Origin: Selaginella tamariscina
Lineage: Eukaryota > Streptophyta > Lycopodiopsida > Selaginellales > Selaginellaceae
NCBI GenBank assembly: GCA_003024785.1
Contig: PUQB01000315.1
Location: 38,660-102,659, forward strand
DNA: 64,000 nt
Direction of reading: 5' to 3'
Positions within the stretch are counted from its first letter, which is position 1, and every line of letters begins with the position of its first letter. Shown here piece after piece: positions 187 through 31,609 of the stretch. The notes under the pieces were generated by a model. It had not been told where the DNA came from, made no database searches, and saw nothing but the letters and a program-made list of their open reading frames with translations. The position numbers were made by a program, and so were the translations under genes.

Positions 187-2671
187 GCTAGCTCATTAAA
201 CCATACATTGCTCAATATAATGGAGTGGTAGAGCACAAGAATCAGACCATCGTGGATATCACACGATGCTTTCTTACTCAATCTAATGCTTCACAAAAGT
301 TTTGGGCAAAGGAGTTAGGTACACCATTTTCCTTTTTAAATGTTAACCTACTGTGGCAGTGAAGGAATTACCCTTGAGGAATCCTTCACAAGGAAAATGC
401 ATGACTTGGCGCATGTGCGGATTTTTGAATGTATAGCATACCAGCAAATTCCAAAGGAGTTGCAAACCAAGTTTGATTTGATTGGGGAAAGGTTGATGTT
501 TGTTAGTTGATACAAATTCTCATGTTTACATATTGATGAATCTTGTGACAACCACCGTTACTGTTTATATGCAAGAAGAAGTGGTGTTTTTTTGAGGAAA
601 TTTCTTTATTTTCTCAATCCTCTTCAATTCTTGATCTTAACTTCGTGACATTTCCAAGTTTTTGGTTTTGGGATAATGTCATTCTATATGTTAATTTTTG
701 GAGTGATGCTTAGCAACGAGGAGCGAGGAAAGCTTAAACAAAGTGTAAAGCTCGAACAAAGAGGAGTTGGCCCAATCATCGAGGCTAAATGAATTTCCGA
801 ATTTTCCCTTGCAATAGTACCTTAGGGATTTTCTGTGTGACAGTACCTTAGGAATTTTCCCATGCAACAATACCTCAAGCATTTTCTTGTGCAATAGTAC
901 CTCAAGAACTTTCCTATGCAACAATACCTTAGGAAATTTCATGTGTGACAACTCTAGCAGTCACAAAATCTACTCATGAGCCACTAGTACACCGAAAGAG
1001 GATGAAAATTCCTAATCGGAAGGCTATTGAAAATTCTAGCCCCAATGCATTTACATTTGGTGAATTTAACCTAACGACCAACCTACCCCTAAAACCATAC
1101 CTTGAAGGTGTTGGACAAAGGAACCAAAAACCTAAAGCATACTTTGATTACTGCAAGGATCTTTAAAAACTAATGATGGTTATGCTTTCACTCTTGACTT
1201 GCTAAAATTTTGTACAGTCGCATGTACGTTAGAGCCTTCTTCATTCAAGGAGGCTATGGCTAGACATGATGCTAGTCAATATAAGTGAGCAATAGATAAG
1301 GAGATTGATTCCATCTCTCGCATGAACACTTTTGAGGAAGTTGTGCTCCCAGTTGACTCTACAACCCTTGGTAGTTGGAGGGTCTACAAGACAAAGCTTA
1401 ATCCCAATGGCTCCAACAACTGTCACAAAGCTCGACTTGTGGCACAAGATTATAAGTAGCAATTTAGATGACAAGCGTTCAGATTTTGCTTGCATTTGCT
1501 ACTTATTTTGACTTTGAGATACATCACACTGACATTAAAACTACTTTCTTGAATGGAGATTTAGAAGAAAATGTCTATCTCCAGCAACCAACCCATGGGA
1601 AGGAACATCTTGTATGGAAGCTCAAGAAAGCTCTTTATGGCCTTAAGCAAGCTTCTAGAGCATGGTAATAAAAAATCAATATTTTTTTCAAAGCAAAGGA
1701 TTATCTCCCATCACTTTTGAGTCCAACATTTACATCAAGAAAGAAGGGAAGTTTTTATTCATTCTTGCTCTCTACATGAATGACTCACTTTTGATCAGTA
1801 ACAACGTTGAATATTTACAGATCTTCAAAGCAAAACTTGGACAAGCTTTGCTATGGAGGACCTTGGAGAAGCTTGGTATTTTTTTGGTCTAGAGATCCAT
1901 TGAAATAGGAAGCTAAGGTCTTTACACATCTCCCAACAGTAATACTTGACTAAGGTTCTTGAGACTTATGGATATGCTAATTGCAATCCTTCTCATTTAC
2001 CTATGAAGCCTAGTAACATCAAGTTTTTCACAAAAGTGGAGTGTATTTCCATTGAGGAGGAGCATTAGGATATGGTAAAGGTACCCTTTCAGAATTTACT
2101 TGGGAGTCTCATGCACACTATGGTGTGTAGCCATCCAGATTTGGCTTATGTCGTCATTGCTTTTAGGCAGTATTCCACTAATCTTGGTAGGAAACATTGG
2201 GACATGGCAAAATACGTGATGCAGTATGTAAAGCAAATGTTTGCTTTTGGATTATCCTAGTATGACTCAAGTGGTGGTTTTTCCCTAGCTACTTTTAGTG
2301 ATAACAGCTTATTGGATGCCGAGATAGCCACAAATCTACAACATGATTTTGTTTTAAGATTGGAACAAGTCTTGTTCTTTGGGCCAGTAAGAAGCAAGCT
2401 CATGTTGCCCTTTCTTCTACAAAAGCAAAGTATTTATTTGGCTACCTCTGTTGCTTCTAGGGAGATCCTTTGGTTTCAAGAATTTCTTGGAGCTCTCAGA
2501 CAATTCTCAACACCAATTCTACTCTATGTGGACAACGAGGGAGCAATTGATTGGTGCAATAGTGAGGTGCAACACTGGAAATCCAAACACGTTGCCAAAC
2601 ACTATCACTATATCAAGGAATTGGTAAACATCAAACACAGAAATTCCATTGGGGTCGTGGCCAAGCCTTGA
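187..2671 (+). pseudogene. copia-L pol: integrase end, reverse transcriptase, RNase H
   Basis: The integrase end is visible near 190-330 as QYNGVVEHKNQTI and SQKFWAKEL, the region around the catalytic Glu of copia integrases. After a repeat-bearing linker, the RT starts near 1250 (EIDSI..MNTFEEV, then SWRVYKTKLNPNG and KARLVAQDYK) and continues with HHTDIKTTFLNGDLEE and KKALYGLKQASRAW. The catalytic box reads LALYMNDSLLISN where copia normally has YVDD. RNase H follows near 2390-2660 (YLATSVASREILWFQEFLG, YVDNEGAID). Several stops and frame changes, and a short deletion after KARLVAQDYK, break the reading frame, so it cannot make a full polyprotein. Confidence 0.9.
790..958 (+). repeat. 27-bp in-frame tandem repeats in copia-L linker
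   Basis: About six imperfect copies of a 27-bp unit lie between integrase and RT. In the coding sense each unit reads as nine residues of the form [EA]-[FL]-S-x-A-x-[IV]-P-Q, for example EFSHATIPQ and AFSCAIVPQ. The repeat is also present in the two minus-strand copies, so it belongs to the family. Confidence 0.75.
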
Positions 2672-2727
2672 ATGAGGAGGAGGAATAGCAGCAGTCACAC
2701 CCTTTGCTTTAGGAGGAGCGTTGAAGT

Positions 2728-2890
2728 CGAAATCCAAGAATGAAGATGTGCAAACTTAAAAATATTCTTAGTTGGTTCAAAATCACTAGTATATAGCGAA
2801 CTCTTGTTTTAATTAAACATTTGTTTGCACGATTCTTTTGTGAAAGATCCTGTCTTTCTTTCCATCGTTCCAGCTCTTTGTTATTTGTCA
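2728..2890 (+). repeat. copia-L 3' LTR
   Basis: This is a 163-bp short LTR ending TTTGTCA. It is colinear with 16958-17126 and 38348-38516 on the other strand. A purine-rich tract (TTTAGGAGGAGCG) lies just upstream and can serve as polypurine tract. The first dinucleotide is CG where the other copies have TG. It contains a heat-shock-element-like AATATTC core that is better preserved in the 5' LTR at 55087-55314. Confidence 0.8.
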
Positions 2891-3417
2891 CGTACATGTA
2901 GATGGAATTCTCAAACCCAGATTCAGCAGACATGATGAAACTTGCTATAAAGTGTATAAAGTGCTGCATGAGGAAGAGAACGGGCTCACCATGCTTTGCA
3001 AGCTGAAGCCTTTCTTAACATGTTTGGAGAACTTCCGCCTCGCTCTCCTGCATGCCAGGCTTTGGCTCCTCCATTCTGAACTGCCTATTCACTTCGGTTC
3101 CAGTGTCTCATATAAGTAACTTGTTTGTTCCTGTAAGCATGCTTATAAACGCTGTGCAATTGTGTAGACAAGGAGCTCAGGTCCAATGGGTCATTCTAGA
3201 GAATGATTCATCAAAGAGCCGAATACCCATTTCCATCTCTTTTAGAGGTATCTAGCACTGTGTGTGTGAGAGAGAGACACTGAGAGACTGATATCCTGTT
3301 ATGTATTGATTTACCAGACTCAACATATGGAGGCGGACGTTCTGTCCTTGTGCAAGAAAAGGAGGTTTATCACATAAAAGAAGACGACTACCTGCCTTCG
3401 TTTCGGTGGAAGAAACC
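2891..3417 (+). pseudogene. gene H, leftmost copy, middle exons (unrecognised gene)
   Basis: The copy begins within an exon directly after the copia LTR (CGTACATG, then MEFSNPDSADMM in frame). It continues with a segment that reads ENGLTMLCKLKPFLT and LENFRLALLHARLWLLHSE in another frame. A probable GT-AG intron follows (GTAAGT-like at about 3117, AG at about 3170), then an exon with QGAQVQWVILENDSSKSRI. Another intron with GT/GA repeats follows, and then the exon that starts after ACCAG near 3317 (DSTYGGGRSVLVQE). That exon is cut by the MULE at 3417 and resumes at 12539. I do not recognise the protein. The MULE, the copia insertion and frame breaks make this copy non-functional. Confidence 0.6.
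3409..3417 (+). repeat. MULE target-site duplication, left (GAAGAAACC)
   Basis: This 9-bp sequence is identical to 12539-12547. The intact, single-copy form of the site is seen on the minus strand at 16431-16439 in the paralogous H copy. Nine base pairs is the usual target duplication of Mutator-like elements. Confidence 0.9.
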
Positions 3418-3460
3418 GAGTGTCGCCATTTTGGAGGCTTGGGGCCCAGGAGGCCTGGGC
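3418..3460 (+). repeat. MULE left terminal inverted repeat
   Basis: The outer 22 bp pair imperfectly with 12517-12538, and the CAGGAGGC block pairs with the right end after a one-base offset. The TIR is short compared with classical long-TIR MULEs. Two AGTCGGC motifs lie just inside (3508-3533). Confidence 0.75.
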
Positions 3461-3500
3461 TAGAATATTCAAGAATATTCTAGAATATTTTGGAATATTC
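3461..3500. promoter_or_regulatory. heat-shock-element-like array, MULE left end
   Basis: Four 10-bp units of GAATATTC (the third has one change) follow each other without a gap. They give the alternating pattern GAAnnTTCnnGAAnnTTC, which is the consensus of heat-shock factor sites. A less regular array of the same type lies at the other end (12421-12490). The binding role is inferred from the consensus only. Confidence 0.5.
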
Positions 3501-3613
3501 TTTTTAGTCGGCAGTATTGGCCTCAGTCGGCGAAAAAGAATTCTATTAAAACTGTTGTATTTCTATCTTATTTTTTTTTATATTAGCTTAATTTATTACT
3601 CAATATACATTAG

Positions 3614-6600
3614 CTAAAGTTTCTTCTTCATCTTAAGTAAAGTTGCAGTTCTCAAACCACCAGCTAGGCTTGGACGTGGAGGTGTTTGAGTAGGTAATTT
3701 CTCTAGTTTAATGTTCTCTGCGAGCTTGTTTGTTGCCAACCTAGAGAGTTTGAAACTCTTCTCGGTTCCTATAATATTCCTTCCGAGCTCGACGGCAGCT
3801 AACAACGATGATCCGGTTCCGGAACCAATATCTCAGACTAGGTCGCAAGGTCTACTGAGACGCTCAATCAAAAGCTGCATGAGTCAAACACTCTTCGGTT
3901 GAATCATCATCCTGCACAAACTTCCATTAGGATAAACAAAGCAAAGTACTTCCTTACCAAGCCTCCTGAAAACGGTCGGCAGTGTCGACGAGGATCGTGT
4001 TCGTCAACGCTAGAGGGTTTGGCCTCTTCGACTTCTTCTCAGAGCTTTGCAGCATCAAGAGAACTAACAAGTATCCTGCCACATAGACTAAGTTAAACTT
4101 AAACTTGAATAGCTAGCTCACCTTAATTTTGTCACGGTATCCCCAGCCTCGTGCACGGTAAACGCTGTAAGTCCCTGCAACCTCCAAGTTGATTATTGCA
4201 GCCGCCTGAATCACCGCCAATACAGAAGGAGAACTCGCGAAGACGACCATGAAACTACTCACTGCCAAGTGCATTCCACTAAACTGCAAGGCCTCCTCAA
4301 ACTTCACCGGATCTAGCTGCACAATGTCCTTGTTGATGCTAGCACCTCCATATACAAGCTCATTGGGCAAGTCGAGGATGATGAGGTTGAAGCCGTATTC
4401 ACCTACCACTTCCTGGAACACCGTTTGTGACTCAACCGTATGTTGTCTGTCAACCTGTTGTCGGAGCTTGGTGTACACCTCTGTCTGGGAAGCACCCGGC
4501 TCGAAGAAAGACTTGCTCATCTCCTCCATATCACACACAGCCAGGTCGTAGGATCCACGGGATGCAGCCAGGGTCGGGATGAAGGTCATCAGGTTGTCCT
4601 TGATGTCCAAACTAGCTACAAGTGGCTGTACCTCATTGATTGTAAAGTCGATTGCCGGCGGAGGTGCTGTAAAAGAGCTTGGTCCCGCTCCTGATCCCTT
4701 TGCAGGTGTAGTTGTCTTTTGCACCGTCTTCTTCATCTTGCTCTTCTTGATAGCCTCTACTTCGTCCGGCTCCCAAACAATCACTGGTAAATCATTGCCG
4801 TGCACGTTGAATAGTGAGCTCTCCCAAGCTGGTGGCTGTTGCGACAGACAGTCGAGCCAGAATGGAACATGCTCCCGTTCAAATGGTGTTAGAGCTCCTC
4901 TGCTCTTCGATCACATGTGAGGCTCGCTTGTATGATCTGTCCACAGCTTCATCATCTAAGACGGTGCCATTTTCTTCGCCAGTATGAACCTGTAACACAA
5001 AGTCAGACAGTAGCAATGCTGGAATGAAAGCTTACCTCCATATCATCCGACGCACAAACTCCTCACGCTCCAGAAACTCATTCGGCTCCATCGAATAAGT
5101 GAACCATATGCAGTCATGGAAGGGCTAAAAGACCAGGCACTTGCTCCGAGTTCTCATCTCGTCAAACCAGCTCATGAAGTCGACATCCGTTCCAACTTCT
5201 TCACCATCCTCTCGCAACCCCTTAAGGATTTGAATGGCTTCCTCGCGCACAGCCTTCCAATATAAGTCCAAGGTGAACCACTTGATCCACTCTTTGTCCT
5301 GCATGCCTGGTAGCCCAAGTGTCTGTTGTTCTGCCTTGGATTCGAGACGAGTGAGCTTGTTCAAGTATCGGAGTCGCAGCATGTTTGGAATCTTCGCCTT
5401 TGACATCGCATACAGCTTCTCAATGCCCATCCAGCGACACTGCTTATGAGAGATGTTCGTCACCTTCTGGAACCACTCCTCCCCCAAGTCTGGGTCTATG
5501 ATGGAGAGGAACTTGTGCATACGTTGGTCATGCTTCTTGTACACTAGCTACTTCAGGTTCACCTCAACCTGTGAATTGTCCTTAGCACTGGTGACTGCTC
5601 TGTCGAGATCATCGTCAATCTCGTTCTGCACATAAAATAAGTTAAAAAATTCTTTCCTATAAATTAAATCGGAGGTTACCTTGAAAAGGATCTTTGCGCA
5701 GATCAGGTTCGGAAAAGGATGCCAAGCCGTCTTTCCTGCTGAACTCTCCTTCCACTTCCGCACCTCAAGACGATCAACCTCCATGAGTGACTCGAGGATT
5801 TTTCTGAGTTCCTTTTGTACTAGTGCAGACCGCCTTTACAGCGAGGAGAATATGTGGTAGCGTTGTTTCCACAGATGTTGCTGAAGATCTGTTCAACGAA
5901 ACTGTAAGTCTAAACTCTTAACAAAAAGAAAAGAAAATACTCACATGTTAATCGATTGGAACATCGAAACCAGTTGAAGAATGTCGAGGTTCTCTGTGGA
6001 GATGAAACTCGATCGAACGCGAATAGCCCATCGCTGGTTGTCCTCTGCATCCTCTCGGTATAGCTGGATGAACAAGGCCGTGTTGCATAGATAACCAGCC
6101 TTCTTCAACGATGACACCAGCATGTCTAAGTCCCTGGGTTCACTCGTCAAACCACCTCGTTCGAATGTATTCTACAGATGGGCACATCAGGAGGATCACC
6201 AAGTCCCTTGATAGTAATTTTGTCGAGCAGGTTTGCTGAGCTCTCCAAATGCAGGCTCGCCGGTATGCTGTATAACTCCTTCGGCTCCTTATCGCTCTTC
6301 GCCTTCTTGCCTTTTGAATCAGCTTTCCCGCGGCCTCTCTTTTTGCTGACTGCCTCCTCCAAGTCGTCCTCGCTAGCTTCAACTGCCTCTGTCATCTGCA
6401 CTTGCTCGTTCAGGACTGCAACCTCAGCGGATGAAGGAGGCAACTGCGACGAGCTCTCCGGGAAATCTGTGATGGTTGGTGGAGGCTGCTCCTGCTCAAC
6501 TGGTACTACTCCAGACTGAGTCATTAGAGGATCCTCCTTTGCTACATTAGATGGTTCTCCTCTCTTGCCTCGCTTCTGCTTCGATATCCTCTTCTCTTCC

Positions 6601-6653
6601 TGTGGCTCTTCATCAGGCGCAGTCTCTAGTAGATGTTTTGAAGCTCTCACCAT
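3614..6653 (-). pseudogene. beta-class DNA methyltransferase-like gene carried by the MULE
   Basis: This multi-exon gene is read leftward from ATG at 6653 (MVRASKHLLE). The N-terminal 180 residues are charged and low-complexity with Lys/Arg runs (KKRGRGK, KGKKAK), a possible nuclear-localisation region. Middle exons (about 6150-5125) match nothing I know; plausible introns lie at 5943-5889 (GTGAGT...TTACAG) and 5681-5627. The 4805-4113 exon has FNLIILDLPNE near 4400-4370, at the place of motif IV (usually DPPY/DPPW). The last exons (3909-3614) read LMQLLIERLSRP, then DIGSGTGSS, then AAVELGRNIIGTE: motifs X and I of beta-class N6-adenine/N4-cytosine methyltransferases, in the diagnostic order IV before X-I. 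Two TGA codons and one TAG (about 5550) interrupt the frame, plus at least one frameshift (about 6165). Activity is doubtful. Confidence 0.7.
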
Positions 6654-7329
6654 TTTGTAAACTCTGGAAAGCAAACACACAAGTCAATTGATTAGGAGAC
6701 AAAATAAAAAACAAACAAAGATGACTAACCTTGTGGCTGCCGACTCAAGCTAGATGGTGCCGTCGCTCTCAGTCGGCACAGAGATGTAGAAGAGCATTTC
6801 CTGCCGACTGAGACAGGTTAGTGCCGACCCTCTCAGACGGCGAGCTAGGATCTCCTAAAATAAAAATAAAAATAAAAATGACTAACCTTGTGGCTGCCGA
6901 CTCAAACTAGATGGTGCCGACCCTCTCAGTCGGCACAGAGATGTAAAAGAACAAGAATCAAACCCGCAACCTCTACGCTACAAGCTAATCACGTTCTTAA
7001 ACTTTCCTCTTCCTGGGAAAAAAAGTAAGTTAACAGGACTTGTGGCTGCTGACTCAAACTAGATGGTGCCGACCCTCTCAGTCGGCACAAAGATGTAAAA
7101 GAACAAGAATCGAACCCACAACCTCTACGTTACAAACTACAAGAGCTAACCAACTTGTCAATTCTATAAACATGAGAGCATATTGGAGGAATGTTAGAAG
7201 TTTATTCATGGGGCAAAATTACAACCAACAATTCCAAGTTTTTCCCCTACATACTATGCGTTTGTACTACTTCTCTAGCTAGCTAAAAAATACTATGTAC
7301 ACCTTAGACCATGTTCCACCACCTCACTA

Positions 7330-7432
7330 CGTCAGCAGCCCCGTCAGCAGCCACGTCGGCAGCCACGTCAGCAGCCACGTCAGCAGGCGCGTCAACAGGC
7401 ACGACAGACAGGCAGGACAGACAGGCAGGACA
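7330..7432 (+). repeat. 12-bp minisatellite inside the MULE
   Basis: About six copies of a 12-bp unit close to GTCAGCAGCCAC are followed by GACAGACAGGCAG repeats. The open frames here (AATSAATSAATS-type translations) are products of the repeat, not a gene. Confidence 0.75.
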
Positions 7433-8075
7433 ATGCCAACACCAGAAAGCTTACACGCACCTGGTTCCTCATCCGTGGGAGTCCACTAGCCACCTAGGTG
7501 GGCTCCATCTCCACTTCACCTGACATTGAAGTTTCACTCCGAGCAGTGGAAGCCACTGTCTTTCTAGTAAGTCCCGCTCCTCTAGATCACCTCGTTCCCA
7601 AGAAACCTCATGGTGAGAAGCCACTGCCGACACCAGTGTAGTCCAGAAGAAGACTGGTTTAGGGTTTCATGTCAATTGTATAAACATGAGAGCATATTGG
7701 CATGTGCTGCATATTGACCTGGATTAGTGAAGTGTTAATCACGTCCTTAACCTGCTCCTGCCTAATCCGTCCCTAACCCCGTGGCTGCCGACTCAAACTA
7801 GATGGTGCCGACCCTCTCAGTCGGCACAAAGATGTAAAAGAACAGGAATCGAACCCACAACCTCTACGCTACAAACTGCAAGATGTAAAAAACAGGAATC
7901 GAACCCACAACCTCTACGCTACAAATTGCAAGATGTAAAAGAACAGGAATCGAACCCCCGTGGCTGCCGACTCAAACTAGATGGTGCCGACCCTCTCAGT
8001 CGGCACAAAGATGTAAAAGAACAGGAATCGAACCCACAACCTCTACGCTACAAACTGCAAGATGTAAAAGAACAG

Positions 8076-8129
8076 GAATCAAACCCACAACCTCTACGCT
8101 ACAAATTGCAAGAGCTAACCAACTTGCCA
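8076..8129 (-). repeat. tRNA-related (SINE-head-like) sequence within the MULE repeats
   Basis: On the minus strand, TGGCAAGTTGG (8129-8119) fits the A-box of tRNA genes, and GGGTTTGATTC (8086-8076; GGGTTCGATTC in sister units) fits the B-box, about 33 nt downstream. Partial copies lie at about 7105-7160, 7850-7880, 8390-8400, 8575-8675 and 8755-8800. A cloverleaf with a paired acceptor stem is not apparent, so this is a tRNA-derived repeat and not a tRNA gene. Confidence 0.45.
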
Positions 8130-9558
8130 ATTCTATAAACATGAGAGCATATTGGCATGTGTTGCATATTGACCTGGATTAGTGAAGTGTTAATCATCAC
8201 ATCCTTAACCTGCTCCTGCCTAATTCGTCCCTAACCCCGTGGCTGCCGACTCAAACTAGATGGTGCTGACCCTCTCAATCGGCACAAAGATGTAAGAGAA
8301 CAAGAATCGAACCTAACCCCGTGGCTGCCGACTCAAACTAGATGGTGCCGACCCTCTCAGTCGGCACAAAGATGTAAAAGAACAAGAATCGAACCCACAA
8401 CCTCTACGCTACAAACTGCACCCGTGGCTGCCGACTCAAACTAGATGGTGCCGACCCTCTCAATCGGCACAAAGATGTAAAAGAACAAGAATCGAACCTA
8501 ACCCCGTGGCTGCCGACTCAAACTAGATGGTGCCGACCCTCTCAGTCGGCACAAAGATGTAAAAGAACAAGAATCGAACCCACAACCTCTACGCTACAAA
8601 CTGCAAGATGTAAAAGAACAAGACTCAAACACACAACCTCTACAATACAAACCACAAAGGCTAACCAACTTGTCAATTCTGTAAACACAAGAGCATATTG
8701 GCATGTGGTGCATATTGACCTGGCTTAGTGAAGTGTTTGTTAGCAAGAATCAACCCGCAACCTCTATGTTACAAACCACAAGGGCTAACCAACTTGTTAA
8801 TTCTATAAACACTTATAAACATTGGCATGCAGTATATATGTACACCTTTGTAGCTAAATCCTTAATTTATTATGGTAAGTTTAGTTAACGATTTAGGATT
8901 TAGTGTTAATCATTTCATAAATACTCTTAATCAAGTGTTAATCATGTCCTATTTTTGCCATTCCAAAAAAGGATTGTTGAATCCTTTTTTTGTCATTCCA
9001 AAAAGGATTTGTTAAGGTTATATAAAGATAACTAACTATAAAGGTGAAATATATGCCACTATTGCCAGTAACACATGCGATTGATGTATCACAAAGGTTA
9101 GTTCAATTTCTTTTCTTTCCATCATACAAAGTATAGAATTCATATTTGCCATTTTATTAAGTTAACATTATAACTCTGTAAAAAGAAATACTTGAGCCAC
9201 AAAGCAAAAAAATAAATAAATTCAAAATACCTTGTGGTTGCCGATTGAACCAGGATGGTGCCGTCACTCTTAGTCGGCACAAATGAGAAGACACATTAAC
9301 TTTGAAAAAAAAATATTATGATACAGATACTTGAGCCGCAAAAAAAAATAAACAAATCGAAAATACCTTGTGGCTGCCGATTGAACTAGGATGGTGCCAT
9401 CACTCTCAGTCGGCACAAATGGGAAGACCCTTTATCTATGGGATTCCGACACAAATGGGAAGACACATTAACTTTAAAAAAAAAAACATTGTGATACGGA
9501 TAATTGAGCCGCAAAGAAAAAAATTAAAGTTAAACGAGTCTCTGACCTACCGCAGATA

Positions 9559-12072
9559 TACAATGGAAATGTCATTTATGAACTTCCCCCAAAGAAAGAA
9601 AGCACAGAGAAGTACTTGGGGATGAATCGCAAGGATGGCTGCTACCATTGGACACACCCGAGCACAACACACTGGCATGTTTCGGCGCGAGTCAGTCGAA
9701 GTTCATGTGTGGACATCTCAAATGCATCAATCCTACCTGCCCCTACTTGGCTTTTGAGAAGAAAGCAAATGAATGTCACTTCAAGGGTGCTGTGGAGAAG
9801 GCAAAGACAACTGAGACAGGCAAAGTAATAGGCATGAAATGTAAGCATTGTGGAGAGGAGCCATTGCTAGTGCACACTTGTCCGGCTTATGTGTACTACA
9901 TTCTGCCAGACGACATTTCTTTTACAAGGTTGTTCATTCACAGAGGTGTTCATCAGCATCCAGTCAGCCCCTCAGTGTCAGCTTCAAACGTTCAGCGTGC
10001 CAGATCTAGTGTCAGCAACGTGGTAAAGAGCAGTCCGCGAACCAATCAACGAGTGATTGAGTTTCAAGCTGCGCGTGAGCTCATCTTTGAAGAACTTTTC
10101 AAGGAAGAAGGAGAAGTCTCGTACACTGGTTTACTCTCAAAACTTGAACCTCTAACAAACCATCGAAGGTATTTTTCTTTAGATCTCTACACACTGACGT
10201 GACCTTTCTTTAGGACTCGGGACTGGATTACACAATCAAGACAGAAGGAGACACACTTTAGAGAGGGTTACGAGGGTCTTCTGGAGCTGAAGACAAAGTT
10301 GCCAATACCTTTCATTCACGTCATACATGTTCCAGGGATGGAACTGCATGGTGCTGAGGAGCAGCCTCTGATCTTCAAAATGACAGTTGAGGGACCGGGT
10401 TCAGGAGTTGACTACATCAGAAGGTGTCAAAGTGGAGGAGACCTTCATGATCAATGGGTTGTTCTGGACCACACGCACCGCATACCAGACTGGGCGACAA
10501 TTGGAATACACCTTTATGACCCATTGTAAGTTGTAAACTCTTCATAACACTTTCTAATCTTGTTATCTAATGCTCTCTTACAGTGTCAGATCCATGGTGA
10601 CTATAGCTTACGCAGATATGTGCCGCGAAGATAATGTTGCAGTGCTGAAGTTCTTGAACACAATGCTAGAGGTTTGTAAGAAGCAGGGTTTGGAGAATGT
10701 CAACTTTGCTGGTTTCATGTCGGATGAGGCTGGAGCGATATGGATAGCCTTGCGCCAAGTATTCAACAACGGAAAAGATGAAAGGGAGGGAAAGAAGCTG
10801 TCTGTTTCACTTTATGCAATCCGTGCGTCAGGTGACAAAGAAATGGATCGCAGAAGAACATCGCGAAGAACACATGAAGCTTGCTCGTGCCTGGCCTGCA
10901 GCACTGAATGAACAATCTAAGAAAGAACAACTGGCAATTCTCGAGTCTTTTTGGGAAGGACGAGCGTCAAACATTCGAGCTTTGAAGACATGGCTGTCTT
11001 GGTGGATCAGGCATGAGGACCACATCTCCATGGCGGAACTGGGAGACATGACAGAAGAAGGACTCGCGAGCGTTCCAACTACAAACAATGCTGAAGTGAT
11101 TCAACGAGAGCAAGAAGAGCAAGATTGGCCAAAAGAGTACCACTGCTGGAGGCGACAATGTTAGACCTCACCGATGCAGTTATGCAGAGTGCGAAGGTGA
11201 AAGCGGCAATAGAAGGGAGGTATACAGGGTCAGGGCCTTCGAAGGAAACTCTGTTGAAACGAGTGCAACGCAAACTCTCTGAGGGGAAAAGTGTATCTCC
11301 ATCAACAATTATCAATCTGGTGGAAGGCGAGGAACACTTGACCAGCCCGGAGTTCACGAGTACCACTAACGTTCGAGTGCAAACTGTTAGGAGAACAGTC
11401 ACAGGAACAGAACAGTCTGATGCTCGACGTTCACACAGACATGATGTAGAGTACACAGAGCGGGTGGTCCAAAACAACAGGAGAAAGAGGTTAAGGTTCG
11501 AAGAGGTTTTGGAGAGAGAGATTGCTCAAACAGAGTGGGCCATCAGACGAATCGGAGCATCCAGTAAGGTTAAGTGTTTGGGATGAATCAGGAAGGAACT
11601 GCTCTGTGTGGAAAACCAATCGGTTATCCAAGCAGAGTGCCAGCACCAGGATTCTATGGAAAACGAATGTACATTGATGCCTTGGGGAATGAGGGAGTAT
11701 GTACAACAGATGATGTGGTTCTGCCCAAAAGATTCAGGGTGTTTCACACGGCCAAACGGCAAAATTCTTCGGTCACGAATTCCAACACCACCAACGGTTT
11801 GGCCTGTGCTCAAGGAAACGAAGCTGACAAGTGAGGAGGTCAGAGAACTACAGGATGCAGGCTTTGTTCTGGAAGGTTTACAGGGGATGGCAGGAAGAGT
11901 AGATGAGGGTCAGAAGGACAAAACACCATCGCCACCACGTGGAGCTGGATCTACAACAATTCCACCTTTCGAAGGACGTATGGTCCGGACTCCAACAAAA
12001 ATGTCTAAGGAACAAGAGAAGAATTTCCGCAAGGCCAAGACGTTTTTAGGTGTGTGCGAAATGTTGAAGTGA
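9559..12072 (+). pseudogene. MULE transposase with GCM-type zinc finger
   Basis: Exon 1 (to 10168) encodes a Cys/His domain with the layout of GCM/WRKY-GCM1 DNA-binding domains: FMCGHLKC, ECHFKGA, GMKCKHCG, HTCPAYVYY and the closing GVHQHP. Exon 2 (10214-10525) holds the first catalytic Asp (QWVVLDHTHRIPDW). Exon 3 (from 10584) holds the second (NFAGFMSDEAGAIW), the Cys/His signature CLFHFMQSV and the acidic third residue (TTNNAEVIQ), completing a MULE-type DDE set. Introns are GT-AG (10169-10213, 10526-10583). The C-terminal part (11125-12072) is basic and unrecognised. One-base frame changes near 9665, 10800, 11125 and 11575-11610 break it. The true 5' start is uncertain. Confidence 0.8.
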
Positions 12073-12420
12073 CAGCTAGAGGACGGAAGGAGGCTTTCGT
12101 TGTGTCGGCAGGAAATGACTCTGCAAAGGTGACTTAATACTTATCCTTCATGCAGTTGTTCTACTTTCAGAAGAGCAAAAGTTGGAGCCCATGTGTACAC
12201 ATGTACTTCGTCTATAGCCGTGTGCTTGGCTTGAACCCGGACGTCACATATTTTCTACAAAGGCGATCGCTCAGTGAGATGGAGGTCCACCGTTTGCTGT
12301 GAATTGCAGCAGAGTTCATGACCCACCGGTGCTACAAGGATAAATGGTTTAGGGTTTAGGATAATGCTTTATTAAGCCAGTCGGCATATATTAAGCCAGT
12401 GGCATATTAAAAAAACTTAT
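12073..12420 (+). other. MULE 3' region without a gene
   Basis: This is the downstream flank of the transposase gene. It contains an AGTCGGCA motif at about 12378-12385, matching the motif near the left end. No coding sequence is supported, although several short frames continue the composition of the transposase gene, so an additional terminal exon is possible. Confidence 0.4.
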
Positions 12421-12490
12421 ATATTCTAGAATATTCTTGAGAATATTCTAAATATGTTAGAATATACCTAGAATATCCGCGAATATACTA
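12421..12490. promoter_or_regulatory. heat-shock-element-like array, MULE right end
   Basis: The run contains GAATATTC twice, plus several one-off variants (GAATATAC, GAATATCC), spaced in the GAAnnTTC register. It mirrors 3461-3500 at the opposite end, so the array is probably part of the extended inverted repeat. Confidence 0.45.
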
Positions 12491-12500
12491 GAATAATATG

Positions 12501-12538
12501 AAGCCTCCTGAGCCGGAGCCTCCTTTTCGCCGAGACCC
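12501..12538 (-). repeat. MULE right terminal inverted repeat
   Basis: The sequence ends GGAGCCTCCTTTTCGCCGAG followed by ACCC. In reverse complement it gives GGGTCTCGGC...GGAGGCT, which pairs with the left TIR. Confidence 0.75.
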
Positions 12539-12547
12539 GAAGAAACC
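12539..12547 (+). repeat. MULE target-site duplication, right (GAAGAAACC)
   Basis: This is a perfect copy of 3409-3417. The gene H exon interrupted by the MULE resumes directly afterwards (CAACTACCCGCTG, compared with CGGCTACCCGCTG in the empty site). Confidence 0.9.
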
Positions 12548-12775
12548 CAACTACCCGCTGATTTTTACTCAGGGGGGAGCATCTTTGTTGAGTGGCAAAA
12601 AGGGCATGCTGGATGACGAGGCTTTGGAGGATTTGGTGACAGTGGGAAACTCCTAGAGTGCTTGGTCAGCTGCGAAAGTTAAATTCTCAAGCCTTTGAAC
12701 AGTTTGGCCCCGGTCTCTATTGCCATTTATATATATATTATATATAGCATCTTACGGTACTTAGAGATCTCTCCG
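12548..12775 (+). pseudogene. gene H, leftmost copy, last exon after the MULE
   Basis: This continues the exon cut at 3417. It contains the conserved SIFVEW-type and DDEALEDLVTV segments seen in the copies at 16228-16957 and 28546-30500, with frame breaks. Similarity to the minus-strand copy stops close to 12775 (ACGGTACTTAGAGATCTC), where AT-rich spacer begins. Confidence 0.55.
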
Positions 12776-12780
12776 TGTGT

Positions 12781-15001: not shown

Positions 15002-15678
15002 GAGACATTCCAGATCCATCGCCTGAAGACACAAGATAATGGGATCACTCACACTCAAGCACACCCACACGCATTGCAGTACATAAAAAGTTCTCTCTCA
15101 CGCGCACACAGTGTCACACACATTGCAATAAGGGGAAAAACAACACATAATAAGTGAGCCTTGAATCTTACACTCGCACACATACCAATTGAAATAAGAA
15201 ACAACATACAGTGAGCCATGAATACACCTCCTAGAAAGTGTAATCTCTATGCCAAAAAAAGGGGATATATACATAGATTCGTGGATCATGCTTTTTGTGT
15301 GTGTTGAGGAATTCCCATTGAAATAAAAAAACACAGTGAGCCATAAATCATATAACACAATACCCAAAATGAATCTCTCTCACGAAAAGGGGAAACAAGG
15401 AAAGGAAAAAACAACCACACAAAAGCAATCTATATATGTAGGAATTCACTCACCATACTTGATATAGTACTCGAGTTCTTAGCAGGAAGCCCAGGCACTC
15501 CAAATCCGATGAGGTCAGAGTAAGTGAAATCCCTCAGGTCCGACGCGTACTCAATTCCATGGTAGGCCAGCTTCTCCACAGCAGCATCCACGGCCTGCGC
15601 CTTTCCAGGTCCCCATAGCACAGACTCGAGGACCGATCTCACGGATTTCTCCTGTTCCTTCTTTCCCCACATTCTCAT
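15002..15678 (-). pseudogene. TMS gene, copy A (broken)
   Basis: Same family as the intact genes at 36899-37628 and 59823-60627. Exon 1 (15678-15454) starts MRMWGKKEQEKS, but a one-base deletion in the Lys-Lys codons near 15475 shifts the frame after GVPGLPAK. The remnant of exon 2 (from 15022) keeps DGSGMSRA, but about 45 bp encoding the membrane segment have been lost, apparently between short ACAAAT-like repeats. Both changes remove the C-terminal anchor. Confidence 0.7.
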
Positions 15679-15689
15679 CTTGCCCTAGG

Positions 15690-16164: not shown

Positions 16165-16200
<36 letters not shown>
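16160..16200. repeat. (TA)n microsatellite
   Basis: A pure TA run lies between the TMS and H copies. In unit B the corresponding place carries a roughly 560-bp deletion that begins inside this run. Confidence 0.8.
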
Positions 16201-16227
16201 CACGGAGAGATCTCAAGTACCGTAAGA

Positions 16228-16957
16228 TGCTATATAATATATAGATGGCAATGGAGACCGAGGCCAAACTGTTCAAAGGCTTGAGAATTTAACTTTCGCA
16301 GCTGACCAAGCACTCTGGGAGTCTCCCACTGTCACCAAATCCTCCAAAGCCTCGTCATCCAGCACGCCCTTTTTGCCACTCAACAAAGATGCTCTCTCCC
16401 TCCCCCCGAGTAAAAGTCAGCGGGTAGCCGGGTTTCTTCCACCGAAACCAAGGCAGGTAGTCGTCTTCTTTTATGTGATAAACTTCCTCTTCTTGCACAA
16501 GGACAGAACGTCCGCCTCCATATGTTGAGTCTGGTAAATCAATACATAACAGGATATCAGTATCTCAGTCTCTCTCTCTCACACACACAGTGTTAGATAC
16601 CTCTAAAAGAGATGGAAATGGGTATTCGGCTCTTTCATGAATCATTCTCTAGAATGACCCATTGGACCTGAGCTCCTTGTCTACACAATTGCACAGCGTT
16701 TATAAGCATGCTTACAGGGACAAACAAGTTACTTACATGAGACACTGGAACCGAAGTGAATAGGCAGTTCAGAATGGAGGAGCCAAAGCCTGGCATGCAG
16801 GAGAGCGAGGCGGAAGTTCTCCAAACATGTTAAGAAAGGCTTCAGCTTGCAAAGCATGGTGAGCCCGTTCTCTTCCTCATGCAGCACTTTATACACTTTA
16901 TAGCAAGTTTCATCATGTCTGCTGAATCTGGGTTTGAGAATTCCATCTACATGTACG
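16228..16957 (-). pseudogene. gene H, copy A, 3' exons
   Basis: It begins at the copia target site (GTACG, 16953-16957) and runs leftward. The exon to about 16737 includes LKPFLT and ENFRLALLHARLWLLHSE. The exon around 16605-16680 includes QVQWVILEND. The exon from about 16540 reads STYGGGRSVLVQEEEVYHI, then YLPWFRWKKPGYPLTF, SIFVEWQKG and, after a frame change, DDEALEDLVTVGDSQSAW. It preserves the MULE empty site at 16431-16439. The function is unknown. The 5' exons are missing because copia and later rearrangements separate them. Confidence 0.55.
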
Positions 16958-17159
16958 TGACAAATAACAAAGAGCTGGAACGATAGAAAGAAAGACAGGA
17001 TCTTTCACAAAAGAATCGTGCAAACAAATGTTTAACTAAAACAAGAGAAATGAGTTCGCATATACTAGTGATTTTGAACCAACTAAAATATTTTTAAGTT
17101 TTGCACATCTTCATTCTTGGATTTCAACTTCAACGCTCCTCCTAAAGCAAAGGGTGTGA

Positions 17160-20060
17160 CTGCTGCTATTCCTCCTCCTCAGTCAAGGTTGGCCATGACC
17201 CCAATGGAATTTTTGTGTTTGATGTTTACCATTTCCTTGATATAGTGATAGTGTTTGGCATTGCACCTCACTATTGCATCAATCAATTGCTCCCTCGTTA
17301 TCCACACAGAGTAGAATGGTGTTGAGAATTGTCTAAGAGCTCCAAGAAATTCTTGAAACCAAAGAATCTCCCTAGAAGCAACGGAGGTAGCCAAATATTT
17401 TGCTTCTGTGGAAAAAGGGCAACATGAGCTTGCTTTTTACTGGCCCAAATAACAAGACTTGTTCCAATCTTGAAACAAAATCATGTTGTGGATTTGTGGC
17501 TATCTCGGTCATCCAATAAGCTGTTATCACTAAAAGTAGCTAGGGAAAACCATCACTTGAGCCATAGGATAATCCAAAAGCAAGCGTTTACTTTACATAC
17601 TGCATCACGTATTTTGCCATGTCCCAATGTTTCCTACATAAGCCAAATCTAGACGGCTACACACCATAGTGTGCATGAGACTCCCAAGTAAATTCTAAAA
17701 GGGTACCTTTGCCATATTCTACGCTCCTCCTCAGTGGAAATACACTCCACTTTTGTGAAAAACTTGATGTTACTAGGCTCCATAAGTAAATGAGAAGGAT
17801 TGCAATTAGCATATCCATAAGTCTCAAGAACCTTAGTCATGTATTGCTGTTGGGAGATGTGTAGAGACTTTACCTTTCTATTTCAATGGATCTCTAGACC
17901 AAAAAAATACCGAGCTTCTCCAAGGTCCTCCATAGCAAAGCTTGTCCAAGTTTTGCTTTGAAGATCTATAAATACTCAAGGTTGTTACTGATCAAAAGTG
18001 AGTCATTCATGTAGAAAGCAAGAATGAGTAAAAACTTTCCTTCTTTCTTGATGTAAATGTTGGACTCAAAAGTGATGAGAAAAATCCTTTGCTTTGAAAA
18101 AAACATTGATTTTTTGTCACCATGCTCTAGAGGCTTGTTTAAGGCCATAAAGAGCTTTCTTGAGCTTTCATACAAGATGTTCCCCATGGGTGTAACCTTT
18201 TGGTTACTGAAGATAAACATTTTCTTACAAATCGTTTTCAAGAAAGTAGTTTTAATGTCAATGTGATGTATCTCAAGGTCAAAATAAGTAGCAAATGCAA
18301 GCAAAATCTAAATGCTTGTCATCTTTACCATTGGAAAGTACGTTTCGAGATAATGCACACCATACTGCTGCTTATAATCTTGTGCCACAAGTCGAGCTTT
18401 GTGACAGTTGTTGGAGCCATTGGGATTAAGCTTTGTTTTGTAGACCCTCCAACTACCAAGGGCTGTAGAGTCAACAGGGAGCACAATTTCCTCAAAAGTG
18501 TTCATGCAAGTGATGGAATCAATCTCCTTGTCCATCGCTCACTTCCAATGACTAGCATCATGTCCAGCCATAACCTCCTTGAATGAAGAAGGCTCTAACG
18601 TACATGCAACTGTACAAAATTCTAGCAAGTCAAGAGTGAAAGCATAAGAGCATTCAGCATTTTCAATAGCCTTCCGACTAGGAATTTTCATCCTTTCTAT
18701 GTCCTAGTGGCTCATGAGTAGATTTTGTGACTACTAGAGTTGTCACACATGAAATTTCCAAAGGTATTGTTGCATAGGAAAGTTCTCGAGGTACTATTGC
18801 ACAGGAAAATGCCTGAGGTATTGTTGCATGGGAAAATTCCTAAGGTACTGTCACACGGGAAAATCCCTAAGGTCCTATTGCAAGGAAAAATTCATAAGGT
18901 ACTATCAGGGAAATTCATTTAGCCTCGATGATTAGGCCAGCTCCTCTTTGTTCAAGCTTTACACTTTGTTTAAGCTTTCCTCCTTGTAAGACGCTCCTCG
19001 TTGCTAAGCATCACTCCAAAAATTAACATATAGAATGGCATTATCCCAAAACTAAACACTTGGAAATGTCACGAAGTTAAGATCAAGAATTGAAGAGGAT
19101 TGAGAAAAGAAAGAAATTTCCTCAAAAAACACTACTTCTTCCTGCATATAAATGGTAACAGTGGTTGTCACAAGATTCATCAATATGTAAACATGAGAAT
19201 TTGTATCAAACATGCCAACAAACATCAACCTTTCCCTAATCAAATCAAATTTGGTTTGCAGCTCCTTTGGAATTTGCTAAATCCACGCAAAGTCATGCAT
19301 TTTCCTTGTAAAGGATTCCTCAAGGGTAATTCCTTCACTACCACAGTAGGTCAACATTTAAAAAGGAAAATGGCGTACCTAACTCCTTTGACCAAAACTT
19401 TTGTGGAGCATTAGATTAAGTATAAGGCATTGTGCGATATCCATGATGGTCTGATTCTTGTGCTCTGCCACTCCATTATATTGAGCAATGTATGGTTTAG
19501 TGAGCTAGCCCTAAATTTCTGCCATGGAGTAGATGCTATCAAAAGCATGGTTCACTAATCCATGCATAGCCTTTTAATTTCACAACTAGTTTGGTTTTCA
19601 ACCAAAGCTTTCCAATCTACAAAACAATTCAAGACTTCAGATTTTCTTTTTAAAAAAAAACCCAAGTCTTATGACTTAAATCATTTGTAAAAGTAAAAAA
19701 GACTTAGCCTTTTTAAATGACGAAATTTACATTGGACCACACACATCAATGTCAAGCAAATCACTTGCTGTGCTTCCAATCGTCTTGAAGGGTTGACGAT
19801 GGTGCTTGTTAAGAGCACAAGCTTCATATGGAGCGAGAGTTAACTCATTAAATACAATCAAACCATTTACCATTGTTCTCAATGTAGAAATCCCAAAGTG
19901 AATAATGGCCAAGACGTTTGTGCCAAAGATCACAAGATCCCTTACCAACTAAGGCAAGAATTAAAGAACTTGTAGACTCCTTGTCTTTGAGAGGGTATAA
20001 GTTTCTTTCCCTAGGAGCTATAGCAACCACATCATTAATCCTTGTATTTTGAATCACACA
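17160..20060 (-). pseudogene. copia copy A pol (pre-integrase to RNase H)
   Basis: Read leftward: a GAG-pre-integrase zinc region (CDLWHKRLGHYS, CEACALNKHHRQPF), the start of the integrase core (LLDIDVCGPM), the integrase end, and the 27-bp-repeat linker. The RT follows (MDKEIDSITCMNTFEE, WRVYKTKLNPNG, HYLETYFPMVKM, HHIDIKTTFL) with the catalytic box FYMNDSLLISN, and then RNase H (ATSVASREILWFQEFLG). Stops and frameshifts are frequent. RT residues YMND replace YVDD, as in the other two copies. Confidence 0.9.
18745..18960 (-). repeat. 27-bp tandem repeats in copia copy A
   Basis: About seven imperfect copies of the same 27-bp coding repeat described at 790-958, on the opposite strand. The open frame on the plus strand across this block is the antisense of the repeat and not a gene. 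Confidence 0.75.
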
Positions 20061-21781
20061 TGTTAGAGTTTTAACCCAAAGGGCCAACACGTGGCAACAC
20101 GTGACTACCAAGTGCCATTCGGTGTCATTACCCTATGTGAGCAACACTAAGTCTTCAAGATAACCCTAAGAGTCTGACTCAGGAGCCTAATTAGGCAAAA
20201 GACTTAGAGTCTTACCCAAAGTCCCCTAAAATGACTATCCCTGAACCATAAAGGATAACCCGAGTAGACTTTAGAATCCTGTCCCAATAGACCTAGACAT
20301 GCTTATGCCCTAACCCCACAAAGGAGATGTGTCTCACACATACCCCGTGACAAAGTTAAGGCATCGTCACTTACCTCTCGAGGAATCACCCTCATCCGAG
20401 AGTACAACCCTTTTAGGGCGACAAGGGGTACCCTGAACCATGACTAACCCCTAAGGGTTTGAGTGGCCAAGTCATACCCTAGACCTAGGGCTAGTACTTA
20501 ATGAGGACACGAGTGTGCGCCGTAGGTGGACACAAATGTTCTACTAAGCAAACTCCCTAAGGCTAGGTTTGGATAACCCTAAGTACATGACCTGGCGAGT
20601 GTCTTATGATAGGGCTTTTCCTAATGAGCTTAGGTTGTTCAACCCTTAGATCTTAAGGAGAACACCCCCTAGCTAGGTGTGCCAAAGCACACCTAGTTAC
20701 AAGACTTAACCTTCCTTGAGCGAATGCTCAAGGTTTAACACCCTAATGCAAACACAAGCATGTATGTTTACTAGAGTATCCAACCCCTTGAAGACAAACC
20801 CATGACACAACCCCAAAGGGCGTGCTCGGGCGTTGTATTGTGTGACGTCTAGCCCTAGTGTTACATCTCCATGTGACACTGCCTTCCACGATGTGAGCTA
20901 TCATGCCATAACCCTTTAGATTCAAGAGTTGCACCAAGTGCCACAAACGTGGCCCCTAAATGCCAACTCTAGAACCCCTTAGTGAACCCTCAGGAACTAG
21001 TAATGTTAACCTGTCAAACAAGATCCCACACCCACAGCTGGTCAAGGACATGGATGTGCCTTGCTTGGCCATGAGTGCTACACCTAGCTTGACGTGGAGG
21101 AGGAGGCTGGAGACAAGCCACAACCTCTGCCTCTTGGAACATACATCCTTACAAGACTTCTTAGGCATGGATTCGCCAACGTTAAGGGTAAGCTACCCCA
21201 AAGGTGGGACGTACCATTATCATTTAGAAGTTAGGGCGGCACAACAGAGGGTTGTACCTTAACGACACAAGTTAAAGCTTGCACCAGCAGAAGAGCAACA
21301 AACTCAGTCATGAACCCAGGAGCTCTCCTACGTATACTCTACCTTATTTATGTGACGGAGCCCCCCCTCTTTTGCTGTATGTGTAAGTAGGCTGGCACGA
21401 ATGCCAACCCCTTAGTTAATGAGATGAGTTTGCACACTAACCCCTACCCCTAAACCCTACCCAAGGGGGGGGGGTTTTAGGGCGTGGGTTAGGGCAACCC
21501 TAGGGTTAGGTCAACCCTAGGGGTGTTCCTAACCCTATTTAACATGCCAAACTCATATTAACTAGGACATTAAAATCGGAGGTGGGTTTTTTAGAAGGTA
21601 AGTACTACCTTCACTTAGAGTTTCTCGCGACATTTAAAGATAGTTGGTCGGACTACCCCTAAACACCTAAGTGCACTAAGCGGGGTTTTTCTCACTACAT
21701 CTAGGTCCGTCAACATAGTACAGTAGGTAACAACAGTCAATGTCCAAAGTAAAGGGTCGAGTCATAGTAAAAACTATGACA
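20061..21781 (-). repeat. LARD copy A, 3' LTR
   Basis: A 1.7-kb LTR that begins TGTCATAG and ends CTCTAACA in element orientation. It carries CCCTAAAC and CCCTAGG-rich stretches near 21440-21540 that resemble plant telomere units but are not a telomere array. Near-identical to 25038-26724, 41502-43182 and 46402-54304. Confidence 0.9.
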
Positions 21782-21795
21782 CACTCCCCGCCTTT
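21782..21795 (-). other. LARD copy A polypurine tract
   Basis: In element orientation AAAGGCGGGGAGTG directly precedes the 3' LTR. It is the expected primer for plus-strand DNA synthesis. The equivalent in copy B is 43183-43195. Confidence 0.75.
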
Positions 21796-24700: not shown

Positions 24701-25023
24701 CACACCTCACAAGACTTAGTTTGTAAGCCAGAACAAACTAACACGCCACATCTTGTGGAGTATATGGTATAACATGACCATCCATAAGTAAAGTAACCTA
24801 ACATACAACTTGGAAGTTGCCTTCCAAGTGTTACCTTTGACATTCGAATCCATAACCCACACCCACTTAAGAAGTAGGTGTACTCTAAAGAGTTATAGAT
24901 CTTAGGACCAACTCTACACAAAATTTAAGATGTTAGCCAAAAGTGATAAAGTATTTCAATTTAGAACTAACTAAACCTTAAAACACACCACACTTTAAGC
25001 AGTCCTACTGACCATAGAGAATG
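21796..25023. other. LARD copy A interior, no coding region
   Basis: 3.2 kb of AT-rich sequence between the LTRs. Both strands contain only short frames that are not conserved with copy B (43196-46387), although the nucleotide sequence itself is conserved. I see no retroviral motif (no zinc knuckle, DTGA, YxDD or integrase motif). Confidence 0.8.
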
Positions 25024-25035
25024 GCTCTGATACCA
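25024..25035 (-). other. LARD copy A primer-binding site (initiator-Met tRNA)
   Basis: In element orientation TGGTATCAGAGC lies 2 nt after the 5' LTR. This is the 3'-end complement of plant initiator methionine tRNA, typical of plant LTR elements. Copy B has one change (46388-46399). Confidence 0.9.
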
Positions 25036-25037
25036 AT

Positions 25038-30553: not shown

Positions 30554-30899
30554 CTAATTTGTTTATGCTTATCACGCTTTAAAATTAGAGAATAAAAGAC
30601 ATAATTTCTAAATTTAACATAAAATTTTAGTATAAGTCACTTATTTAAAAATTAATAAAATATTATTGTTATGCTTTTGTTTATTCGACTTAATATTTGT
30701 TTTTGTTGGTTTACTTAATATACTGAAATACGCACAGTAGTTAAGAATTCAGTTTGAATCATACGCACATATATGCCAATGGCGCAAGTAACAAGGTCAA
30801 GAAAACATAGTGAATGTATCCTAACATGTATGGACTACTTCCCCAATTAATGCACAGAAATACACACGCTGATCCCCTATTATTTGCCCTTAACGTTAC

Positions 30900-30956
30900 T
30901 GTGGATTGCCACGTGTCTGCCATGTTATTAAGCCGAGCGTGAAGATCCTAGGGTAT
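30900..30956 (+). promoter_or_regulatory. TMS promoter block with G-box, copy C (shortened)
   Basis: It contains CACGTG at 30910-30915 and CCTAGGGTATATGC, but lacks about 55 bp found before the other copies. The deletion joins two ATG-containing sites and brings a different ATG to the start of the gene. Confidence 0.4.
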
Positions 30957-31609
30957 ATGCGAAAGAAGGAACAGGAGAAATCCGTGAGATCGGTCCTTGA
31001 GTCTGTGCTATGGGGACCTGGAAAGGCGCAGGCTGTGGATACTGCTGTGGAGAAGCTGGCCTACCATGGAATTGAGTACGCGTCGGACCTGAGGGATTTC
31101 ACTTCCTCTGACCTCATCGGATTTGGAGTGCCTGCGCTTCCTGCTAAGAAGCTCGAGTACTATATCAAGTATGGTGAGCTTTTGTGTGGTTGTTTTCCTT
31201 TCCTTGTTTCCCCTTTTCATGAGAGAGATTCATTTTGGGTATTATTCGTGGATCATGCTTTTTGTGTGTTGTCTATCTCCTTTCTTGGCATTTGGTTAGA
31301 GAGAGATTACACTTTCTAGGAGGTGTATTCATGGCTCACTGTATGTTGTTTTCTTATTTCAATTGGCATGTCTGCGAGTGTAAGATTCAAGGCTCACTTA
31401 TTATGTGCTGTTTTTCCCCTTACTGCAATGTGTGTGTGACACTGTGTGTGCGCGTGAGAGAGAACTTTTTACGTATTGCAATGCGTGTGGATGTCCTTGA
31501 GTGTGAGTGATCCCATTATCTTGTGTCTTCAGGCGATGGATCTGGAATGTCTCGTGCGAAAATGGCAGGATTAACAATTGCTATGGTTTTGTTGATTGCT
31601 TATATGTAG
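30957..31609 (+). CDS. small single-pass membrane protein, TMS family, copy C (97 aa)
   Basis: Exon 1 (30957-31173) and exon 2 (31533-31609) join in phase 1 (TATG/GTGAGC...TCTTCAG/GC) into an open frame of 97 residues. The soluble part (EQEKSVRSVLESVLWGPGKA, then EKLAYHGIEYASDLRDF, then GVPALPAKKLEYYIKYG) looks helical. Its GIEYASDLRDFTSSDLIGFG stretch resembles the later helices of SAM/HhH-like domains; this is a weak inference. Exon 2 encodes DGSGMSRAKMAG and a hydrophobic C-terminus (LTIAMVLLIAYM) ending right after the membrane segment, so it is probably tail-anchored. The normal first four residues (MRMW) are replaced by a deletion that fuses an upstream ATG in frame. Function unknown. 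Confidence 0.65.

Follow-up and report, generated by a model that had tools for sequence, protein, structure and literature searches.

The window analyzed here is a 64,000-nucleotide stretch of the Selaginella tamariscina genome. It contains a decayed MULE-like DNA transposon that carries two genes on opposite strands, a transposase gene and a methyltransferase-like gene, with an intergenic region rich in a short repeat between them. The element, its borders and its insertion site are laid out as follows.

3418-12538, 9121 bp: MULE-like DNA transposon, decayed copy (unoccupied paralogous site, end alignment and genome copies)
3409-3417: left target-site duplication, GAAGAAACC (unoccupied site and end alignment)
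12539-12547: right target-site duplication, GAAGAAACC (unoccupied site and end alignment)
3418-3456: left terminal inverted repeat, an imperfect match to the right end (end string recurs in other copies)
12500-12538: right terminal inverted repeat, imperfect (aligned to the left end; end string recurs in other copies)
16200-17637, minus strand: paralogous insertion site lacking the element (window self-comparison)
6720-9470: intergenic region with TCGGCA/TGCCGA arrays (tandem arrays; count against resampling)
9559-12302, plus strand: transposase gene, decayed, with a SWIM-type tail at its end (relatives P0001-P0003; SWIM in P0003)

The borders emerged from comparison of the window with itself. 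The left flank (2187-3417) aligns to 17637-16431 and the right flank (12539-12778) to 16439-16200, both on the minus strand, and the two alignments overlap at the paralogue by nine bases, GAAGAAACC, which are present once there and on both sides of the element. Because both flanks align there continuously and share these nine bases, the paralogue at 17637-16200 represents the site without the 3418-12538 insertion. Alignment of the two ends revealed terminal inverted repeats that are short (~39 bp) and imperfect. Among ten sampled genome copies having both end strings, three carry a perfect 9-bp target-site duplication, two more do so once one end is shifted by a single base, and five lack one. 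The sequence-only reading had placed the methyltransferase-like gene inside a MULE bounded by inverted repeats and a target-site duplication, and the empty paralogous site, the 9-bp duplication and the imperfect repeats bear this out. We use the name MULE-like on the basis of the 9-bp duplication, the inverted repeats and the SWIM tail; no Pfam MULE profile matched the transposase up to an E value of 10.

Other repeats lie in the same window. A decayed Copia-type polyprotein (1-2700) adjoins the element, with minus-strand copies at ~17.6-19.5 and 38.8-41 kb. The segments 17329-25921 and 38765-47289 are direct copies, ~95-97% identical, parts of which occur again at 53-54 kb, in an arrangement of duplicated or nested repeats. 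A Gypsy-type polyprotein in several long open pieces occupies 47760-52697 on the minus strand, and its reverse transcriptase presumably resembles those of chromoviruses of non-seed plants and fungi. Finally, a short coding stretch (KKEQEKSVRSVLESVLWGPGKAQAVD...) is found twice, at 15430-15684 and 30894-31319, and is possibly a piece of a gene carried along by repeats.

The structure of the methyltransferase-like gene was mapped by aligning 26 copies with the window, which yielded a model of six exons separated by five GT-AG introns of 46-56 bases each. The exons below come from this copy alignment, joined by PF01555 for exon 6.

5945-6653, minus strand: exon 1, with the possible ParB-like region; 186-base deletion near 6066, premature stop at 6149
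5680-5888, minus strand: exon 2; one extra base near 5803
5036-5625, minus strand: exon 3, with two premature stops, 5550 and 5127
4122-4989, minus strand: exon 4, in which the methyltransferase domain begins; two premature stops, 4958 and 4913
4362-4391, minus strand: FNLIILDLPN in exon 4, probable motif IV equivalent, non-canonical (two-family profile alignment)
3958-4075, minus strand: exon 5
3614-3911, minus strand: exon 6, holding the X-I-II motif block (3907-3761) and two premature stops, 3886 and 3835
3883-3848, minus strand: LMQLLIERLSRP, string of the motif X and I block
3832-3806, minus strand: DIGSGTGSS, motif I
3799-3761, minus strand: AAVELGRNIIGTE, string of the motif X and I block

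Compared with an uninterrupted copy, the window gene has seven premature stops, has lost 186 bases from exon 1 and differs in length at up to three further places by one inserted or deleted base. The gene at 3614-6653 is a pseudogene, a decayed copy of a six-exon gene. An apparent frameshift near 3950 is ruled out, as it corresponds to a 46-base intron. At intron 1, the acceptor CTTACAG gives no open protein and the acceptor GAACAG yields one. The motif strings quoted in the sequence-only reading are all present on the minus strand, but those for motifs X and I are split here by a premature stop. The six-exon structure and the possible ParB-like N-terminal part are additions to that reading.

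Read as one joined sequence with X at the breaks, the broken window gene matches PF01555 (N6_N4_Mtase) with an E value of 9.2e-7 and 29.5 bits, against a curated cut-off of 26.7 bits, and covers profile positions 165-218 of 221. Single open pieces fall below this cut-off, the last piece reaching E 0.04 and the 265-aa exon giving no match. The C terminus of an uninterrupted 992-aa protein from other genome copies matches the same profile, on the motif X-I block, with E 1.1e-8 and 35.8 bits, and the protein of a second family, described below, matches with E 5.5e-9 and 36.7 bits; in both of these proteins PF01555 is the sole Pfam family above its cut-off. Thus, the assignment of this block to motifs X and I of a beta-class methyltransferase holds for the joined gene, the uninterrupted copy and the second family, and an HMM search of the spliced model, proposed with that assignment as its check, recovered N6_N4_Mtase above the cut-off. 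Chance open frames are ruled out by these scores together with the 144 scored genome matches presented below.

Other collections were searched as well. Among solved structures, the best relative is MboIIA (E 4.2e-4), with DpnA, CcrM and RsrI weaker and interspersed with unrelated chains. DNA methyltransferases head the PDB list, and weaker matches include ribosomal-protein and arginine methyltransferases. PHROGs matches are methyltransferases with E values down to 7.4e-8. Protein-database searches gave no match at E ≤ 1 with either region 530-946 (7999 candidates scored) or the 327-aa methyltransferase part (2674 candidates), and Rfam gave none on the window at gathering scores. These lists also bear on the substrate. 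An enzyme that acts on RNA, protein or host DNA, and not on the DNA of the element, might still help the element indirectly; such an enzyme would be in keeping with the weaker ribosomal-protein and arginine methyltransferase matches and with motif I, as DIGSGTG resembles the general class I form. However, the family that alone exceeds its Pfam cut-off is a DNA methylase family and the PDB list is topped by DNA methyltransferases, and we consider a substrate other than element DNA unlikely.

The window element is a dead member of a large MULE-like family that carries two divergent genes, one encoding a SWIM-tailed transposase and the other an accessory protein. In the genome searched (300.7 Mb, 1391 contigs), the 265-aa exon has at least 144 scored matches, the window included, and 101 of the 144 are stop-free in the matched stretch. 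A transposase exon has at least 150, all of those listed being 99-100% identical. These copy numbers are lower bounds, as 144 of 1819 first-look candidates were scored in the one case and 150 of 1336 in the other. Twenty copies were sampled, not at random but as 20 of the 22 best-ranked non-window matches (the second place on contig C607 and that on C626 were skipped). By BLAST, the alignments of twelve of them extend to within ~12 bp of each end of the window element, and a stretch of the transposase ranks among the six top matches for 18 of the 20. The gene, which had been described from the window copy, is thus retained in many other MULE copies with the transposase beside it, rather than being absent from all of them. 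Eleven full-length copies measure 8.16-8.35 kb, and full-length copies are 97.1-98.6% identical to one of their number, L023, in long matched pieces.

An uninterrupted 992-aa protein is encoded by 5 of the 20 sampled high-ranked copies (L031, L034, L037, L038 and L039), a count that may be too low if the assembly contains small indel errors. The five proteins differ from that of L037 by zero to two residues. Six further copies matched at low identity had no uninterrupted frame. They had been candidates for a divergent subfamily, which was rejected, as the three read in all frames (L041, L042 and L043) are closely related copies that carry small indels. Separately, one match to the methyltransferase exon (G000, C913:36293-36949) lies within a reported open frame of 3141 aa, possibly the result of masked bases or a fusion.

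The transposase of the window has three relatives in the protein database (P0001-P0003), with 29-31% identity and E values of 2.2e-56 to 9.3e-26. Its catalytic residues were assigned by eye. The SWIM finger is detected weakly, with E 0.0029 in relative P0003 and E 0.037 in one genome copy of the window family. In 7 of the 11 full-length copies besides the window (L030, L033, L034, L037, L038, L039 and L040), the transposase frame stops at one common point. L024 passes this point and reaches the SWIM tail, but its frame is interrupted farther upstream. The common stop reflects either a shared change in copies that moved in trans or an assembly error. Among the full-length copies examined, none had both genes free of interruptions, to which assembly errors may contribute. 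Scans of viral contigs with the transposase alignment and with exon 4 found no relative.

When the same genome was searched with PF01555 itself, at least 150 places were scored (of 739 first-look candidates), and all of those listed lie over the cut-off; a control search with this profile was positive in 11 of 14 well-known prokaryote genomes. Many of these places share a 106-aa frame unlike that of the window family. Of six that were examined, four (L059, L060, L061 and L064) lie in or near the window family and two (L062 and L063) represent a second family. The second-family protein, a composite of two copies that omits exon 5, is identical to the window-family protein at 497 of 905 aligned residues (55%, seven regions). 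In both longer second-family stretches, the two genes are arranged as in the window family, with the transposase on the other strand; this transposase is 57% identical to that of the window family in one copy and 44-62% identical in matched pieces in the other. The best target-site duplication in each of the two copies has eight of nine bases, with ends slid by up to six bases.

Across 936 codons compared between the families, pS is 0.84, which is saturated, against a pN of 0.295. The X-I-II block has the lowest pN (0.18), followed by the middle (0.23), the ParB-like part (0.27), the motif IV-VIII stretch (0.34) and the N-terminal tail (0.46), and in all five regions pN lies below a pS of 0.80-0.90 (0.87 for IV-VIII). 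Because both families share the two-gene layout and pN is far below a saturated pS, we conclude that selection retains the accessory gene as part of the element. The accessory protein shows purifying selection, and both genes have been kept in two anciently separated families. As judged from these codon comparisons, there is strong evidence that the element needs the accessory protein. That the gene could instead be a captured passenger of the Pack-MULE type, with no function for the element, would agree with the decay of the window copy and with the known capture of host gene fragments by MULEs. However, a passenger would hardly keep the two-gene layout in two families through saturated silent divergence with pN far below pS, and 5 of the 20 sampled copies have uninterrupted frames; this origin strikes us as very improbable.

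The canonical [DNS]PP[YFW] signature is absent from the 992-aa protein, in which the nearest form is DLPN. This tetrapeptide is identical in the five uninterrupted copies and in the second family, and for that reason the non-canonical motif IV is not a product of decay. In the 992-aa protein, motif I begins at residue 921, 150 residues past DLPN, and the motif IV-to-I distance in phage enzymes is 132-206 (10 of 12, where both motifs were found). A profile built from the two families sets GFNLIILDLPNE on the DPPY strand of phage enzymes with P values of 0.0046-0.0074. Alignments of the single sequence against 10 phage enzymes were weak or preferred another stretch over DLPN. The first single-sequence choice for motif IV, DMEEM, was rejected, as it is not conserved as such in the second family and the two-family profile prefers DLPN. 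Collectively, these data indicate that DLPN probably occupies the motif IV position, with an unusual signature. The circular permutation that the sequence-only reading had seen, motif IV followed by X and I, therefore stands as a probable order with a IV-like DLPN ahead of X and I, but its motif IV is non-canonical and weakly placed by single sequences.

In known enzymes, an aromatic residue at motif IV stacks with the flipped base. Here this residue is absent, and activity must therefore be shown and not assumed. We call the gene methyltransferase-like, and not an active member of the class, because it lacks [DNS]PP[YFW]; a function as a writer of DNA methylation is plausible. The methyltransferase part might alternatively be catalytically dead, a SAM-binding or purely structural domain through which the protein binds DNA or regulates the element, and in which DLPN became fixed after loss of the aromatic residue. 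The presence of DLPN and absence of [DNS]PP[YFW] in both families would suit such a domain, as would the distribution of conservation, which among the regions compared peaks in the X-I-II block (48/64 identical, 75%) and is lower in the IV-VIII stretch (47/90, 52%). However, both families have DLPN despite saturation at their silent sites, and the IV-VIII stretch is itself constrained (pN 0.34, pS 0.87), and both observations fit a working site of unusual chemistry as well. We regard a dead domain as a doubtful but serious prospect. The conserved non-canonical DLPN poses a concrete puzzle in methyltransferase enzymology.

The N-terminal half of the protein offers a lead to how it might find DNA. 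Residues ~150-300 contain a series of motifs conserved by eye between the families, ...DVPICRI..NE.VRRVNP.DL..L..S.KKA.GYLRNT..FIL... followed by KF.CWDGNHRL..LQKLY, which looks like a possible ParB/DndB-type domain with an insertion. By hhalign against 13 phage ParB domains, the region gave P 0.033, which is not significant, as 2 of 60 and 2 of 100 shuffles did as well, and it was outscored by a different stretch of the protein. Pfam DndB (0.061) and ddrB-ParB (0.18) appeared solely after manual removal of the insertion; Pfam ParB families did not match the unedited sequences of either family, PDB searches for ParB returned unrelated weak matches only, and PHROGs searches with the N-terminal and middle parts returned none. 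We keep the ParB-like part as a lead because of the motif series and because an algal analogue, considered below, is described as ParB-like.

A candidate target lies between the two genes. TCGGCA/TGCCGA occurs 36 times in the window element, compared with a mean of 2.6 across 200 resamplings under a first-order Markov model. Three other copies of the window family contain 24, 20 and 24 occurrences compared with ~3 (200 resamplings each), and two second-family copies contain 17 and 24 compared with ~2.5, mainly in the intergenic region. In L037, the sites lie mainly between the two genes, with one doublet near each end. The arrays are candidate binding sites common to both families, which either the accessory protein or the transposase could use; they could equally be transposase sites because copies also occur near the element ends.

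Taken together, these features suggest an accessory protein with a possible ParB-like N terminus and a C-terminal permuted beta-type methyltransferase fold that acts on its own element, a reading to which we give an even chance. The N-terminal part would bind the TCGGCA arrays of the element between its two genes, and the SAM-binding part would modify DNA at the arrays or hold a SAM-dependent state. As a result, the element could avoid silencing or tune expression of its transposase. This would be self-repeat targeting as by VANC of VANDAL elements, but through a bacterial-type methyltransferase. In a bolder version, vascular-plant MULEs would long have carried a self-targeting enzyme of bacterial ancestry, marked by DLPN, that reads the TCGGCA arrays, writes 6mA, 4mC or another mark and keeps many copies active despite 5mC silencing; we put this forward tentatively, as a possibility we would not expect to hold. 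An abundant element may, on either version, mark or protect its own DNA. Because uninterrupted, near-identical gene copies exist, self-marking by a eukaryotic transposon is directly testable.

Several known systems share parts of this arrangement. According to the available text of PMC5735166, VANC of the Arabidopsis VANDAL MULEs binds tandem motifs in the non-coding parts of its own element and induces loss of methylation. The protein described here is likewise the accessory protein of a MULE that contains motif clusters, their binding being putative; unlike it, VANC, compared here by description only, is given no named methyltransferase or ParB domain in that text. The N4CMT protein of bdelloid rotifers, as described in PMC8885841, is a host gene product that contains a chromodomain, places 4mC on transposons and aids their silencing. 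It is a permuted PF01555 enzyme linked to transposons in a eukaryote, as the protein here would be, but the methyltransferase-like gene here sits inside the transposon. In the portion of PMC5890265 available, C5 methyltransferases are reported to have been incorporated by retrotransposons in dinoflagellates and charophytes. There, as here, a transposable element carries a DNA methyltransferase or methyltransferase-like gene; those enzymes belong to the 5mC class and to retrotransposons, whereas the present case combines an amino-methyltransferase-like fold with a DNA transposon. Phages such as Pseudomonas phage Dolphis encode ParB and a beta-class methylase in one polypeptide, resembling the combination of a ParB-like N terminus and a beta-class methylase-like part proposed here. 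However, the Dolphis protein has the canonical DPPY, and the match of phage ParB to the plant protein is weak.

Word searches of the accessible text of the MULE survey PMC6446971 and of PMC13317346 did not find "methyltransferase," and the literature searched, from which most subscription papers were absent, contained no plant MULE with such a gene. The closest analogue is algal. The available part of PMC12477816 describes Sola1-1_Ec32 of Ectocarpus, a 21.5-kb element encoding a 1104-aa ParB-like and N4/N6 methyltransferase protein opposite its transposase, cites similar proteins from green and red algae and proposes that such proteins bind the element encoding them and modify it. As in Sola1-1_Ec32, the protein described here combines methyltransferase and possible ParB-like domains and is encoded inside a DNA transposon on the strand opposite the transposase. 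By description alone, it differs from this brown-algal Sola1 element in its size (~8 kb), 9-bp target-site duplication, lycophyte host, presence in two families, weak ParB similarity and DLPN motif. Because ParB-methyltransferase accessory proteins of algal transposons are published, as far as that text shows, the novelty is below what the sequence-only reading had estimated. The kind of protein is already known; what is added is the MULE setting, the vascular-plant host, the two selected families with deep conservation and the DLPN motif. ParB-methyltransferase-type transposon proteins, reported from algae, are thereby extended to a MULE-like element of a land plant, where selection has maintained such a gene in deeply diverged families of a single genome.
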